From NCBI GenBank assembly GCA_944324165.1, contig CALUVG010000012.1:1-63776 (forward strand): a stretch of DNA of 63,776 nt, read 5' to 3'. A program made the position numbers and the translations under genes. Below are positions 1-59,007 of this stretch, piece after piece. The notes beneath the pieces were generated by a model that was given only the letters and a program-made list of their open reading frames with translations, made no database searches and was not told where the DNA came from. The first letter of the stretch is position 1. Each line of letters opens with the position of its first letter. The stretch comes from Candidatus Gastranaerophilales bacterium (lineage in GTDB: Bacteria; Cyanobacteriota; Vampirovibrionia; Gastranaerophilales; Gastranaerophilaceae).

Positions 1-100
1 ACACGAGTGAAACGAGTTAGTCCGGATAGCGAGAATATTGAGCGAAGTTGAACCGCAGGTTCAATAGCGAAACTATTCGAGCGTGAAGGAAATCCAAGAC
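1..100. repeat. Structured intergenic repeat, copy A
   Basis: This copy shares the blocks TCCGGATAGCGA (21-32), GAGCGTG (79-85) and AATCCAAGAC (91-100) with a second copy at 46571-46670. The two distances between these blocks (46 nt and 5 nt) are identical in both copies, but the sequence between them differs while still folding. Positions 33-37 pair with 74-78, and TTGAACC at 48-54 pairs with GGTTCAA at 58-64 around a GCA loop. The left end may continue beyond the window. Function unknown; structured RNA or a mobile palindromic element are both possible. Confidence 0.7.
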
Positions 101-352
101 AATCGCATCCAGGGTATTTTTGTGCCCATTTTTGAATTTTATTTTAGACAAAAATGCTTTTTTATTTTCTACCTCTGCTCTTTAGGGAAAATTTTGAAAT
201 ATAACTTGTTGTTCAAGGGCAAAATACCTCAACTAATTTTTTAAAATTAAAAGTTACAGAAAGTAAATAATTTATTATAAATTTTATAAACTTTAATAAA
301 AACATGTTATAATTAAGTTAAAGCAATTAAACTTAATTAAGAGTGATTTATA
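101..352. other. AT-rich intergenic stretch before the fic gene
   Basis: No convincing coding region is visible. Apart from the promoter and inverted repeat at 305-338 this is AT-rich sequence between the structured repeat and the Fic gene. Confidence 0.5.
305..338 (+). promoter_or_regulatory. Promoter and inverted-repeat operator candidate for fic
   Basis: An extended -10 element, TG-T-TATAAT (305-313), is followed by an inverted repeat, AATTAAGTT at 311-319 and AACTTAATT at 330-338. The repeat lies over the expected transcription start, between the -10 and the ATG at 353. No good -35 is visible. Position suggests an operator, possibly bound by the Fic protein's own C-terminal HTH; that is inference. 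Confidence 0.45.
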
Positions 353-7048: not shown

Positions 7049-7807
7049 CTAGTTCCACGGATACTCTTCTGTAATCTCCCAGTTATCCCGTTGAATTAAC
7101 GCACCACAAAAAGCCCCATAAGCATTTTTATTGCATCCTAAATTATTGTGATTGATTAATTCGTCTCGCGTAAGTTCAGGTATCCATCCATTTCCGTAGA
7201 AATATACACCAGCCTTTTTAGGTCTGTTTTCATAAACGGAGACAGCTTGTTGTACATTAAAATTTGCACTCATTTGAAATATATCTTTACCAATTTGAGA
7301 TTCACCTTTGTTAGGTCCATCTATATCTATAAAAAAATGAACATGCTCTGAAAATTCCCCCTCTTCAGTAATACCGCCAAACCACACAAATATTGAATAT
7401 CCACTCGCGGTTAATATCGCCTCAGGATATTCCGGTAGAGCTTTCTCTGTATTATTTAAATATTTAATCGGAGTTTTTATACACTCCGTAAGATTACTGT
7501 CATCACAATATTTTGCAATTTTAATTGATTTTCCAAGATAATTTTTTATAAAATTCTCCTGAATTTCTTCTCTTGAACTCCCCATTCCTTGCCAGCTCCA
7601 TGTATTCATAAACCCGTGTTCAACCTCCGCAAGTTTCAATGCCTGATTAATTTCAGAGTAAGCTTTTTGCAACCGTACTACAGTTTGTCTCTTTTGATAC
7701 TTAACCACAAGATTAGGAATTGTCAAAGCTGCAACTATGCCTATTATTGCAAGAGTAATTAGCACTTCTGCTAAAGTAAATCCCATTTCTTTTGTATATC
7801 TGTTCAT
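7049..7807 (-). CDS. Type IV prepilin-like (pseudopilin) protein
   Basis: 252 residues. The N-terminus MNRYTKEMG/FTLAEVLITLA is a classic class III signal: a prepilin peptidase would cut after G9, leaving a hydrophobic N-methylated helix. A C-x7-C pair (YCDDSNLTEC) lies in the middle and the C-terminus reads C-GALIQRDNWEITEEYPW. The C-terminal motif recurs in the prepilin at 58348 and the C-x7-C pair in all three prepilins here. Start at 7807 is set by GGAGG just upstream; an ATG at 7819 lies before the Shine-Dalgarno. No pilus assembly genes are adjacent. Surface filament or secretion role is inferred. Confidence 0.85.
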   Translation of the reverse strand: MNRYTKEMGFTLAEVLITLAIIGIVAALTIPNLVVKYQKRQTVVRLQKAYSEINQALKLAEVEHGFMNTWSWQGMGSSREEIQENFIKNYLGKSIKIAKYCDDSNLTECIKTPIKYLNNTEKALPEYPEAILTASGYSIFVWFGGITEEGEFSEHVHFFIDIDGPNKGESQIGKDIFQMSANFNVQQAVSVYENRPKKAGVYFYGNGWIPELTRDELINHNNLGCNKNAYGAFCGALIQRDNWEITEEYPWN

Positions 7808-45367: not shown

Positions 45368-46507
45368 ATGAAATCCAATTTAACCAAAATTATTAATCAG
45401 AACGAAATTCATCACGTAGCGACAGAGCCAGCTTTAAGTAACTCCTTAGTGCCTTTAAAAAAGAGTGCCTTCACCCTCGCCGAGGTCTTAATCACCCTCG
45501 CGGTAATCGGCGTAGTGGCAGTGCTGACATTACCAGCGTTAATCCAGAATTATAATGAAAAAGCATGGTCAACGGCACAGGATGTATTCACAAAGCGTTT
45601 GGAAGTAGCAACGCGCCAGATGAATACCGAAGAGAAATTGGCTGGCTATTCAAACACAATGGACTTTGTAAACGAACTTAAGAAGTACATAAAAATAACC
45701 CGCGTTTGTGACAACAGCAATATTATAAAATGTTTTGACAAAGAAATAATTTGGAACGAAGGTGAAGACCCGATAGACATGTCCACAATCAAAAATGCCG
45801 CGTCATTAGGTCAGGAAGATTGGGATACAGATACTGTAGCAGTACAATTTGCGAATGGTGTAAATGCAATTATTGCATATAATCCAAATACAACACAGGA
45901 ACCTTTTAATAATCAGTTTAGCGCAACAAGCAATTCAATGGCAATATTGTATGATGTGTCAGGCAACAAAAATCCTAATACAAATGGTAAGGATATAGCC
46001 GGCATAAATGTATCAGAATTAGCAGGTACAACAGGGTGTTTATTGCCGGAAGATGAGCTAGGATTTTGTATAAGCCAAATATTAGCCCCGGGTACAGGAT
46101 ATAGCCCTATGACCTTAGAAGAATGTAATCAAGCAGTATCCGAGGGTACCCTGGGAATAAATGCGTGCTACTACAGTAGTGATTATTGGGCAGGAGCAGT
46201 GAAAGCATGTGGCGGAACAAGTAAAATGGCAACAATGGAACAGTTAGGTCAGCTAGCTACATATTTATATAATTATGGCAGTACAATAGGTGCGGAACAG
46301 GGTATAAGCAGTGGAATAACCCTAGACACAACCAAAGCATCTCAATTCCTCTCAGTTTCATCGAATTCTAACAACAACTTCTATGTTTGGTCGGTGGGGC
46401 GTACTTACAACGTCGCATACTGTCGCAGCTTTACCTCTACCATCACGAGTTGGGGCTACTACTTCCGCAACAACAGCGACAAACTGGCGGTGTGCGTGGA
46501 CCAGTAA
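45368..46507 (+). CDS. Prepilin-like protein with C-type-lectin-like, DGR-target-like tail
   Basis: 379 residues. A 34-residue leader precedes FTLAEVLITLAVIGVVAVLT, the prepilin helix; C-x7-C (VCDNSNIIKC) follows as in the other prepilins. From about residue 235 the sequence changes (ACYYSSDYWAGAVKACGG, then MATMEQLGQLATYL) and ends NFYVWSVGRTY...YYFRNNSDKLAVCVDQ. That end resembles the C-type-lectin fold used by diversity-generating-retroelement variable proteins. The last 45 codons are rich in NNC/NNT codons, and 46381-46500 is about 54% G+C by my count, well above the surroundings. GGAGG upstream of the ATG. A perfect hairpin overlaps the stop. Probably a displayed, diversifiable pilus-tip adhesin. 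Confidence 0.8.
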   Translation: MKSNLTKIINQNEIHHVATEPALSNSLVPLKKSAFTLAEVLITLAVIGVVAVLTLPALIQNYNEKAWSTAQDVFTKRLEVATRQMNTEEKLAGYSNTMDFVNELKKYIKITRVCDNSNIIKCFDKEIIWNEGEDPIDMSTIKNAASLGQEDWDTDTVAVQFANGVNAIIAYNPNTTQEPFNNQFSATSNSMAILYDVSGNKNPNTNGKDIAGINVSELAGTTGCLLPEDELGFCISQILAPGTGYSPMTLEECNQAVSEGTLGINACYYSSDYWAGAVKACGGTSKMATMEQLGQLATYLYNYGSTIGAEQGISSGITLDTTKASQFLSVSSNSNNNFYVWSVGRTYNVAYCRSFTSTITSWGYYFRNNSDKLAVCVDQ

Positions 46508-46526
46508 GAGGCGATGCCTCTTACTG
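46502..46526 (+). repeat. Hairpin overlapping the prepilin stop codon
   Basis: A perfect 11-bp stem: left arm CAGTAAGAGGC (46502-46512), right arm 46516-46526, loop GAT. It sits directly after the candidate variable region. In phage BPP-1 a hairpin just past the variable region is needed for retrohoming, so the position is suggestive. T residues do not follow, so it is not a normal terminator. Confidence 0.75.
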
Positions 46527-46570
46527 AAGGCACTAAGTTACTAAGGCACTAGCGGATTTGCGGACGGACG

Positions 46571-46670
46571 GAGTGAGCAGAGCGAGCGAGTCCGGATAGC
46601 GAACGGAACGAGCCGGCTTGTGCGTAAGCACAATAGGCGAGTCTCCGTGAGCGTGGAGCAAATCCAAGAC
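46571..46670. repeat. Structured intergenic repeat, copy B
   Basis: It shares TCCGGATAGCGA (46591-46602), GAGCGTG (46649-46655) and AATCCAAGAC (46661-46670) with copy A at 1-100, with identical spacing. ACGGA (46603-46607) pairs with TCCGT (46644-46648), replacing GAATA/TATTC of copy A with compensated pairs. TTGTGC and GCACAA form a stem around a GTAA tetraloop. Confidence 0.75.
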
Positions 46671-46710
46671 AAGGGATTAATAAAGACGATAAGTTCGTTA
46701 ATAAAAATAG

Positions 46711-54542: not shown

Positions 54543-55587
54543 ATTAAAAACAGCAACAACAAAATTAGGGAATGAAATATATCTAACCGGAGATGAGACT
54601 GCCAAAACTCTAATTATAGGAGTTTTTCACGGCGATGAACCTCAGGGAAAATTTTTGATTGAAAAATATATTGATTGTGGACAGTCAAATATTCTTCATG
54701 ATACTCAAAGCCCCCTCTCCCTATCCCTCCCCCTCGAGGGGGGAGGGCAAATTTGCCAATATTCTAAATTTACGCTGGAAAAATCTAAAAGGTTACGTCA
54801 CAATATGACTGATGCAGAATCTCTTTTATGGGATTGTTTACGCGCCAAACGGCTCAATGGATTTAAATTCCGACGTCAACAGCCTATAGGCAAATATATT
54901 GTTGATTTTGTCTGCATGTCATATAAATTAGTAGTTGAATTAGATTGCAGTCAACATAATGAAATACCTAATAAGGTATATGATGAAAAAAGAACTCAAT
55001 ATCTTAACAAGTTGGGCTATAAAGTACTGCGAATATGGAATGATGAAATCTTCTCCAATCTAAATGGTGTTTTAGAATATATACTAAGTTCCCTCCCCCC
55101 TCGAGGGGGAGGGATAGGGAGAGGGGGAGACGGCAAACTCTTTATCCCCTGTCTAAACCCTGACGGACTACAGTTAGGGCAGCGCACTAACGCCAATGGT
55201 GTTGATCTTAATCGAAATTTTCCTACGAAAAACTGGGAATTAACAGAAAAAAATGAATTTTTTGGCGGAGAAAAACCTGCAAGCGAAATAGAAACACAAT
55301 TTCTAATTGATGTAATAAATCAATATAAACCCGAAACAATTCTAACCTTACACGCCCCCTTTAAAGTTGTTAATTATGATGGTCCTGCTCGGGAGCTTGC
55401 AGAACAAATATCCCAAATTATTGGCTATCCCGTTGAAGAAAGTATTGGTTATCCAACCCCCGGCAGTTTTGGTACTTACGCCGGTATAGAAAGACAAATT
55501 AAAACAATTACTCTGGAATTGGATGAAACTTGCCATGTTGAAGAACTTTTAACCCCAGTTCATAAAATATTTGACATAATATTGTAA
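54535..55587 (+). CDS. M14-family zinc amidase/carboxypeptidase with an in-frame DUF559 insertion
   Basis: 350 residues. Host part: MpaA-like M14 peptidase with zinc ligands H32/E35 (FHGDEPQG), R227 (DLNRNF), H273 (LTLHAPF) and probable catalytic E328 (TLELDE), so the active site appears complete. TTG start overlaps ftsY. Codons from 54711 to 55127 form an insert flanked by perfect 37-bp inverted repeats and encoding a DUF559 endonuclease-like domain (D124, E135, D137). The insert is 417 nt, exactly 139 codons, so the host frame is kept. The host probably trims murein peptides. Whether the fused protein works is unknown. Confidence 0.85.
   Translation: MNKLKTATTKLGNEIYLTGDETAKTLIIGVFHGDEPQGKFLIEKYIDCGQSNILHDTQSPLSLSLPLEGGGQICQYSKFTLEKSKRLRHNMTDAESLLWDCLRAKRLNGFKFRRQQPIGKYIVDFVCMSYKLVVELDCSQHNEIPNKVYDEKRTQYLNKLGYKVLRIWNDEIFSNLNGVLEYILSSLPPRGGGIGRGGDGKLFIPCLNPDGLQLGQRTNANGVDLNRNFPTKNWELTEKNEFFGGEKPASEIETQFLIDVINQYKPETILTLHAPFKVVNYDGPARELAEQISQIIGYPVEESIGYPTPGSFGTYAGIERQIKTITLELDETCHVEELLTPVHKIFDIIL
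54711..54747. repeat. Left 37-bp inverted repeat of the DUF559 cassette
   Basis: Starts CCCCCTCTCCCTATCCCTCC and matches the reverse complement of 55091-55127 at all 37 positions. It contains its own small palindrome, CCCCCTCGAGGGGG. Highly GC-rich within AT-rich DNA. Confidence 0.9.
55091..55127. repeat. Right 37-bp inverted repeat of the DUF559 cassette
   Basis: Reverse complement of the left repeat at 54711-54747 without mismatch. It is translated as a Pro/Arg/Gly-rich stretch in the host frame. Confidence 0.9.
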
Positions 55588-58347: not shown

Positions 58348-59007
58348 TTAGAATTTTACAGGGTAATCATCTTTATATTCCCAGTTATCATGTCTCAATA
58401 AGCCGGCACATTTCAACGCTGAACTCTCACAAACTTCTTTAAGATAGTTTCTGTCATTTGCCTTTTCTGCTCCATATTTGTCATACACGGTTTGAGACCA
58501 AATATAAGGTACGAACTGCCCTGATTTAGTTTCAAAAGCAAACATATCTACCCCGGCTTTATTTGGTTTTTGAAGCCCGTTTAAATCCACTTCCCAGTAA
58601 AAACTTATCGAACTCCATGTGCCAACAACTGCAACACCATTGTTCAGAATAAATTTTATCATTTGTGCATTGTTGTCATAATCATTTGTGTAACACTTTT
58701 TACCGGTATCAAGCCCGCAGTATTTGGAAAATTTCAAGTATGGTTTAAAATATTTTTCGAAATATTTCTTGTTTTGTGCTCCTACCCACCCCTGAGTGGG
58801 TTTTTCCCACAAACTCATTTCACCATTTTCAGCTTCTGATAATTTAACCGCCTGATTAAATTCTGCATAAGTTTTTTTTAAACGTGTTTCAAAAACGAGT
58901 TTTTGATATTTATTTACAATTGCGGGAATAGTCAAAGCTGCAACAATACCGATAATTGCAAGAGTAATCAAAACTTCTGCAAGAGTAAACGCCCTATAAT
59001 TATTCAT
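58348..59007 (-). CDS. Type IV prepilin-like protein
   Basis: 219 residues. MNNYRA/FTLAEVLITLAIIGIVAALT is a short leader and prepilin helix; C-x7-C (YCGLDTGKKC) lies mid-protein and the C-terminus reads C-AGLLRHDNWEYKDDYPVKF, like that of the prepilin at 7049 (LIQRDNWE...YPW). GGAGG upstream of the ATG. It diverges from the XRE gene at 59117, with a palindrome between. Assembly genes are elsewhere. Confidence 0.87.
   Translation of the reverse strand: MNNYRAFTLAEVLITLAIIGIVAALTIPAIVNKYQKLVFETRLKKTYAEFNQAVKLSEAENGEMSLWEKPTQGWVGAQNKKYFEKYFKPYLKFSKYCGLDTGKKCYTNDYDNNAQMIKFILNNGVAVVGTWSSISFYWEVDLNGLQKPNKAGVDMFAFETKSGQFVPYIWSQTVYDKYGAEKANDRNYLKEVCESSALKCAGLLRHDNWEYKDDYPVKF

Follow-up and report, generated by a model that had tools for sequence, protein, structure and literature searches.

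The 63,776-nt stretch analyzed here (the window) is contig C12 of a 2.05-Mb Candidatus Gastranaerophilales genome in 55 contigs, with window base 1 at the start of the contig. It carries two copies, A (positions 1-100) and B (46552-46670), of a structured repeat which probably is a non-autonomous mobile element, inserted precisely and recognized in trans as a folded single strand. From the two copies, the first-pass annotation had proposed selection for structure and had left a choice between a non-coding RNA, a DNA hairpin site and a mobile palindrome. The last option is favored by precise insertion with empty counterparts, a patchy copy number between species and a copy on a phage contig. 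Direct reading of the window reproduced both copies, but they belong to a set of about 40 places in the genome rather than forming a pair.

The common blocks of A and B were found where they had been described and at identical spacing, with GTCCGGATAGCGA at 20-32 and 46590-46602 and AAATCCAAGACAA at 90-102 and 46660-46672, both at an offset of 46570. The rebuilt stems were likewise seen, GAATA/TATTC in A versus ACGGA/TCCGT in B, together with the inner hairpin, TTGAACC/GGTTCAA versus TTGTGC-GTAA-GCACAA. The first of these stems had been taken for the outer one; its pairing holds, but it is part of an inner arm, P3, and the true outer stem is GGATTTNC/GNAAATCC. This stem reads GGATTTGC/GCAAATCC in copy B and GGATTTCC/GGAAATCC in copy A, the left half of the latter lying outside the window. 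The element as a whole is laid out as 5'-GCG-(stem P1)-arm P2-GATA-arm P3-GTGGA-(P1')-CAAGAC-3', and most copies are 101 to 129 nt long (usual length about 100-130 nt).

Selection for structure is strongly supported by a set of 78 divergent copies that were aligned without structure. Standard pairs filled 94.6% of the pair cells, 99.5% in the terminal stem P1, and changes on both sides were found in 22 of the 31 pairs, so that the copies neither lose the pairing nor are identical throughout. Cells with double changes numbered 358, whereas shuffling gave 97 ± 11.5 and sliding the register no more than 79; pairing and covariation exceeded all 500 shuffles and every slid register. Tandem G·A/A·G mismatches formed by four invariant residues were present in 78/78 copies, and most copies have a second such site. 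The junction of the two inner arms is conserved as well. The mismatches suggest folding of the plus strand. In RNA folding, copy B had a z value of −4.6 and copy A, once its missing part was supplied from the neighboring contig, one of −4.3.

The ends are fixed. GCG followed by a 7-nt stem and CAAGA occurred 222 times in loci partly picked for this element, versus 15, 15, 15 and 34 times for permuted motifs, and unrelated stems, for instance ACCTGCG, are among the occurrences. The terminal stem can be exchanged as a whole, for example for GCGACCTGCG...GCAGGTCAAGAC or GCGTAATTTC...GAAATTACAAGAC, with ends and pairing retained. We propose that shape and ends are kept while the letters of the stems drift because the folded strand is recognized through its end motifs. 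Copies at loci L010, L013 and L047 contain long extra GC-rich stretches in P2, P3 or before P1' and retain the common ends.

In the own genome, a similarity search with copy B gave 45 pairwise matches, and a covariance model, as advised by the first-pass annotation, gave 39. With the same model the element was present in 21 of 39 related genomes, in numbers from 0 to 59; within one genus the counts were 59 (G001), 39 (G002), 34, 8 and 0 (G003). When one genome per species was scanned with a pattern, at least 110 stretches were obtained, almost all from Candidatus Gastranaerophilales, Melainabacteria or unnamed gut bacteria, the sole differently labeled record being one metagenome-assembled genome named Muribaculaceae. 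As far as the scan reached, the element is confined to Candidatus Gastranaerophilales. In Rfam, no match in the window reached the gathering threshold; a search of the elements relaxed to E up to 1 yielded just one hit of note, a weak viral-RNA match in L010 that stayed below threshold. Literature searches for a repeat described in this order found none, and when the end motifs were searched as text, the few papers listed were all unrelated. Two truncated elements were observed, at L053 (780-1204, minus strand) and L050, one continuing directly into the central part of a lectin-like prepilin gene and one replaced by other repeats; they are signs of recombination at the element.

The mode of insertion was read from the flanks of 112 distinct sites. 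The left neighbor of the element is a purine in 106/112 and the right neighbor in 110/112. When the flanks were rejoined to an 18-mer with one right-hand base dropped, the sequence was found uninterrupted elsewhere in the data for 46 of the 112 sites, compared to 11, 5 and 0 sites with 0, 2 and 3 bases dropped and 9 in a control with mispaired flanks. Because rejoining works with exactly one base dropped, the element enters precisely, without target-site duplication and with one purine added at its right end. These empty sites contradict the reading of the repeats as a family of ordinary genes, for non-coding RNAs or terminators, that spread through duplication rather than transposition. The strong structure, the several copies behind tRNAs and prepilin stop codons and the large size of the duplicated prepilin family (93 motif matches) would suit such genes; 112 distinct flank contexts with precise empty counterparts, in-frame placement within coding leaders in sense and antisense, the lack of an Rfam match and of any match in G003 do not, which makes this explanation very improbable.

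Recurrent landing sites are the palindromes CTGAACTT-GTTTCAG and GAGGGA-GGG (the last hyphen marking the junction here and below), GCTACGCA-CGTAGC, arrays of 8-nt units and the T-loops of tRNA 3' ends (TTCG-A). Stems of at least 5 bp were modestly enriched at insertion sites, at 17% versus 10%. General targeting of hairpin loops was rejected as a rule on this account, and we claim only a preference for certain palindromes and T-loops. An energy test on the joined flanks was confounded, as flanks within one class pair with each other. The 8-nt-unit arrays (NTAAGNNN, for example ACGTCTTA and CTAAGGCA) are dispersed near prepilin genes, partly inside coding leaders, and also occur at 46529-46551 of the window and in many copy flanks.

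A route through RNA, in which a folded transcript enters another RNA or nicked DNA and a reverse transcriptase then copies it, would fit the T-loop and hairpin-loop targets. It would also fit the frequency of hairpins and 3' ends of structured RNAs among the targets, the single orientation relative to the CTGAACTT-GTTTCAG and GGGA-GGG palindromes, the missing target duplication and the RNA-like three-way junction with its covariation. Some targets, however, are coding sequences or arrays without an evident RNA hairpin, the stem enrichment is small, neither poly(A) nor a pattern of variable 5' truncation was seen, and reverse transcriptases are distributed without regard to the element, as detailed below. 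We therefore regard this route as unlikely.

The T-loop class comprises 42 of the 112 sites, and the tRNA itself is intact wherever visible. Upstream of 23 of the 42 lies an uninterrupted copy of the target, mostly 90 to 121 nt away, in the order intact target, terminator, short conserved stretch, T-loop with element, and second copy of the tRNA 3' end. Transfer RNA 3' ends are thereby marked as a recurrent landing place. Copy A is a case of this class behind tRNA-Arg, and its slot holds in relatives the same element, other elements, two tandem units or, in the zero-copy genome G003, none. This arrangement, with the terminator between the two target copies, together with the tandem units behind one tRNA-Arg in G001 and G004, could mean that a site-specific integrase recombines at the folded element, which would then be an attC-like or tRNA-att-like site, and that the units of about 200 bp are mini integrative elements restoring the tRNA 3' end. 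Yet at many insertions the element is all that was inserted, and on direct reading the GCG/CAAGAC ends differ from the RYYYAAC/GTTRRRY core sites of integron attC; we consider this explanation quite unlikely. Among 2.9 million viral contigs one matched the pattern. In this phage copy (L272, 3700-4050) a structural gene situated behind the tail-sheath gene has the element just past its opening codons; after the element, the start of this structural gene occurs a second time with silent differences, a duplication that recalls the restored tRNAs.

Prepilin genes are the other prominent context, and the association with pilin genes, which the first-pass annotation had wanted examined, is real in this genome. 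The N_methyl motif has 93 matches in the 2-Mb own genome (G000), and 19 of 40 copies are found within 200 bp of one, compared to 4.8 expected and a maximum of 11 in 2000 random placements, a count in which the share of gene duplication is still contained. In all 14 distinct copies that precede a prepilin motif (own genome and relatives) the prepilin frame is open through the element, in sense or antisense, and in 12 of the 14 an ATG is located upstream beyond it. In the own genome, the open stretch before FTLAEV has a median of 22 residues where the element is missing; where it is present, the median is 83. An empty paralogue on contig C10 is 129 nt (43 codons) shorter than its occupied counterpart on C17 and the two are identical in the ribosome-binding site upstream and in the start codon. 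Translation might conceivably begin at a weak start within the element. The prepilin leader would be a safe place in that it is removed by prepilin peptidase, and the element may thus be a case of selfish DNA tolerated within coding sequence, in a position from which the additional residues should be cleaved away. For a 2-Mb genome, about 90 N-terminal motifs of the prepilin type are unusually many; in the window they are found at 7721-7783, 45458-45529 and 58930-59007. Leaders at L253, L017, L048 and L260 hold other in-frame repeats (LSCPPLETLPNKNNPVDCFCERKP... and GRLACTTTQATAKAA), and prepilin leaders seem to receive repeats quite generally.

Several observations weigh against a mobile element recognized in trans as a folded strand. 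Surveys of RAYT/Y1 proteins, IS110 and reverse transcriptases identified no mobilizing enzyme. Three of the genomes richest in the element, G000, G002 and G019 with 35 to 39 copies each, lack Y1 transposases of the RAYT type. RAYT-like genes do occur in 17 of the 39 relatives, and the element is palindromic, intergenic and multicopy, as would be expected of a repetitive extragenic palindrome (REP) or bacterial interspersed mosaic element (BIME) moved by a RAYT (Y1) transposase. In the 14 RAYT loci that were read, however, flanking hairpins, where present, were short REPs of the GTAGG type and never the element. A RAYT/REP origin was rejected on flanks and gene presence and is scarcely tenable. 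The RAYT-like Y1 genes themselves (L195-L208) number one to three per genome and have their own GTAGG-hairpin REPs of different sequence. IS110 transposase matched in no element-carrying genome, and a derivative of these bridge-RNA elements was rejected for this reason. Reverse transcriptases do not follow copy number: an RVT_1 protein was undetected in G001 (59 copies) and G002 (39 copies), and G003 with zero copies has two. As mover, this enzyme was rejected as well. The only RVT_1 protein of the own genome has 311 amino acids and a YVDD motif (L270, 1313-2246, minus strand), is encoded on another contig than copies A and B and, judged by eye, is possibly retron-like. The IS91 Y2 HUH transposase gave no match in the carriers, and control genomes were equally silent.

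The strand assignment is a further point of this kind, as it depends only on the G·A mismatches. Both strands have similar folding energy (mean z of −3.86 and −3.60), so that an assignment from energy failed, and orientation showed no clear replication-strand bias (38/66, p 0.27). Copy number, above all near prepilins, could partly reflect gene duplication, and recent movement was not directly seen.

Taking these points into consideration, we still attribute A and B to a mobile element and propose that an enzyme supplied in trans would recognize it as a folded single strand, more likely of DNA than of RNA, read the end motifs displayed by the terminal stem and join the element between two purines. 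Copies would survive where harm is small, that is, in other palindromes and 8-nt arrays, behind tRNA genes, where the duplicated 3' end leaves the tRNA intact, and in prepilin leaders, which prepilin peptidase is expected to remove. More tentatively, and with rather little confidence, we suggest that this may be an undescribed kind of mobile element. The unit of selection would be the folded single strand, with fixed ends on a replaceable stem, moved by an unfamiliar enzyme or RNA route into the loops of folded sequences, in two modes, as the bare element and as a tRNA-restoring unit of about 200 bp. The element would be a structured mobile repeat documented in good detail for a gut lineage that has been little studied, and its covariation, exact junctions and empty sites make the mechanism testable.

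In the window, copy A is the right part of an element cut by the contig edge (1-100, + strand) and ends with CAAGAC at position 100. It contains GTCCGGATAGCGA, the P3 arm GAATA/TATTC, the inner hairpin TTGAACC-GCA-GGTTCAA and, from the outer stem, the right strand GGAAATCC. Contig C13 terminates in the 77 nt with which the window opens, an overlap of k-mer size, and we therefore attribute copy A to a single element split by the assembly. Its missing left end, GCGGATTTCCGTACGGACG, is found on C13, with an intact tRNA-Arg(TCT) upstream, and an extra purine (101) and the copy ATCGCATCCAGGGTA of the 3' end of this tRNA follow it in the window (101-116, + strand). The overlap and the tRNA 3'-end copy point to adjacency of C13 and C12. 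The element accounts for assembly breaks in these genomes, copy A being one example.

Copy B is complete (46552-46670, + strand; 119 nt, GCG...CAAGAC). The left strand GGATTTGC of its outer stem P1 (46554-46561, + strand) pairs with GCAAATCC at 46658-46665. Arm P2 (46565-46594, + strand; CGGAC...GTCCG) is variable in inner length, paired in 97.9% of cells and doubly changed in 4 of 5 pairs. Arm P3 (46599-46653, + strand) comprises the tandem G·A mismatches (GCGA...GAGC), ACGGA/TCCGT and the hairpin TTGTGC-GTAA-GCACAA at 46618-46633. The copy is inserted in a short 8-nt-unit array (GGCACTAA GTTACTAA GGCACTA; 46529-46551, + strand) between a prepilin gene and an alanine racemase gene. In relatives, the latter has no element in front or another one in reverse. 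The upstream gene (45368-46507, + strand) encodes 379 amino acids with a leader of 30-odd residues followed by FTLAEVLITLA. Copy B indeed follows it, 44 nt past the stop codon, but the lectin tail ascribed to this prepilin was not borne out by Pfam, which reported only N_methyl, just below cut-off (20.7 bits; cut-off 21.2). A perfect 11-bp hairpin, CAGTAAGAGGC-GAT-GCCTCTTACTG, spans the stop codon (46502-46526, + strand, by direct reading). Such a stop-codon hairpin is a feature of lectin-like prepilin genes, a paralogous gene in L049 having one with other letters and the same pairing, CAATTAAGAAGAC-TTT-GTCTTCTTAATTG. Elsewhere in the window, a perfect 37-nt GC-rich inverted repeat is found at 54711-54747 and 55091-55127, 343 nt apart.

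Compared to known systems, the element shares single features with several. IS200/IS605 elements have strand-specific folded ends and insert without target duplication. Folded ends and missing duplication are common to both, whereas the element has no fixed target tetranucleotide, is closed by a single global terminal stem rather than by a hairpin at either end and occurs in an own genome in which no Y1 transposase was found. REP/BIME sequences are folded extragenic palindromes of the same bacterial group, but the element is three to five times longer, has no GTAG tag and is unlinked to RAYT genes. Repetitive hairpin-forming and double-hairpin elements of mitochondria show compensatory differences and are scattered between related taxa (PMC2800124). 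The element likewise has hairpins differing by compensatory changes, while those elements are mitochondrial and shorter. To our knowledge they have no common end motif of this kind.

The closest known kinds are miniature inverted-repeat transposable elements (MITEs) and Rickettsia palindromic elements (RPEs). As in MITEs, the element is short, non-autonomous and multicopy with an inverted terminal stem; it differs by the lack of the target-site duplication of most MITEs, by an internal fold conserved by covariation beyond the ends and by having no known parent transposon. The loci read showed no larger element bounded by the GCG/CAAGAC ends, and no systematic search for such an autonomous parent was made. 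RPEs are palindromic, of about 100-150 bp, and present in tens of copies and several families per genome, many of them in frame in protein-coding genes (PMC10969869). They appear nearest in behavior, a likeness of kind and not of descent that was drawn from their description, the sequences of the RPE families being outside the comparison. The element resembles them in its palindromic form, length and copy number of about 40 per genome and in its in-frame insertion in coding genes. It differs from them by the bacterial order, by the three-way-junction fold, tandem G·A mismatches and fixed GCG/CAAGAC ends, and by its concentration at prepilin leaders and tRNA 3' ends, RPEs being found in unrelated metabolic genes. 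With an RPE-like behavior but neither the target duplication of MITEs nor the tag and RAYT linkage of REPs, the element is therefore placed among the known kinds as a variant.
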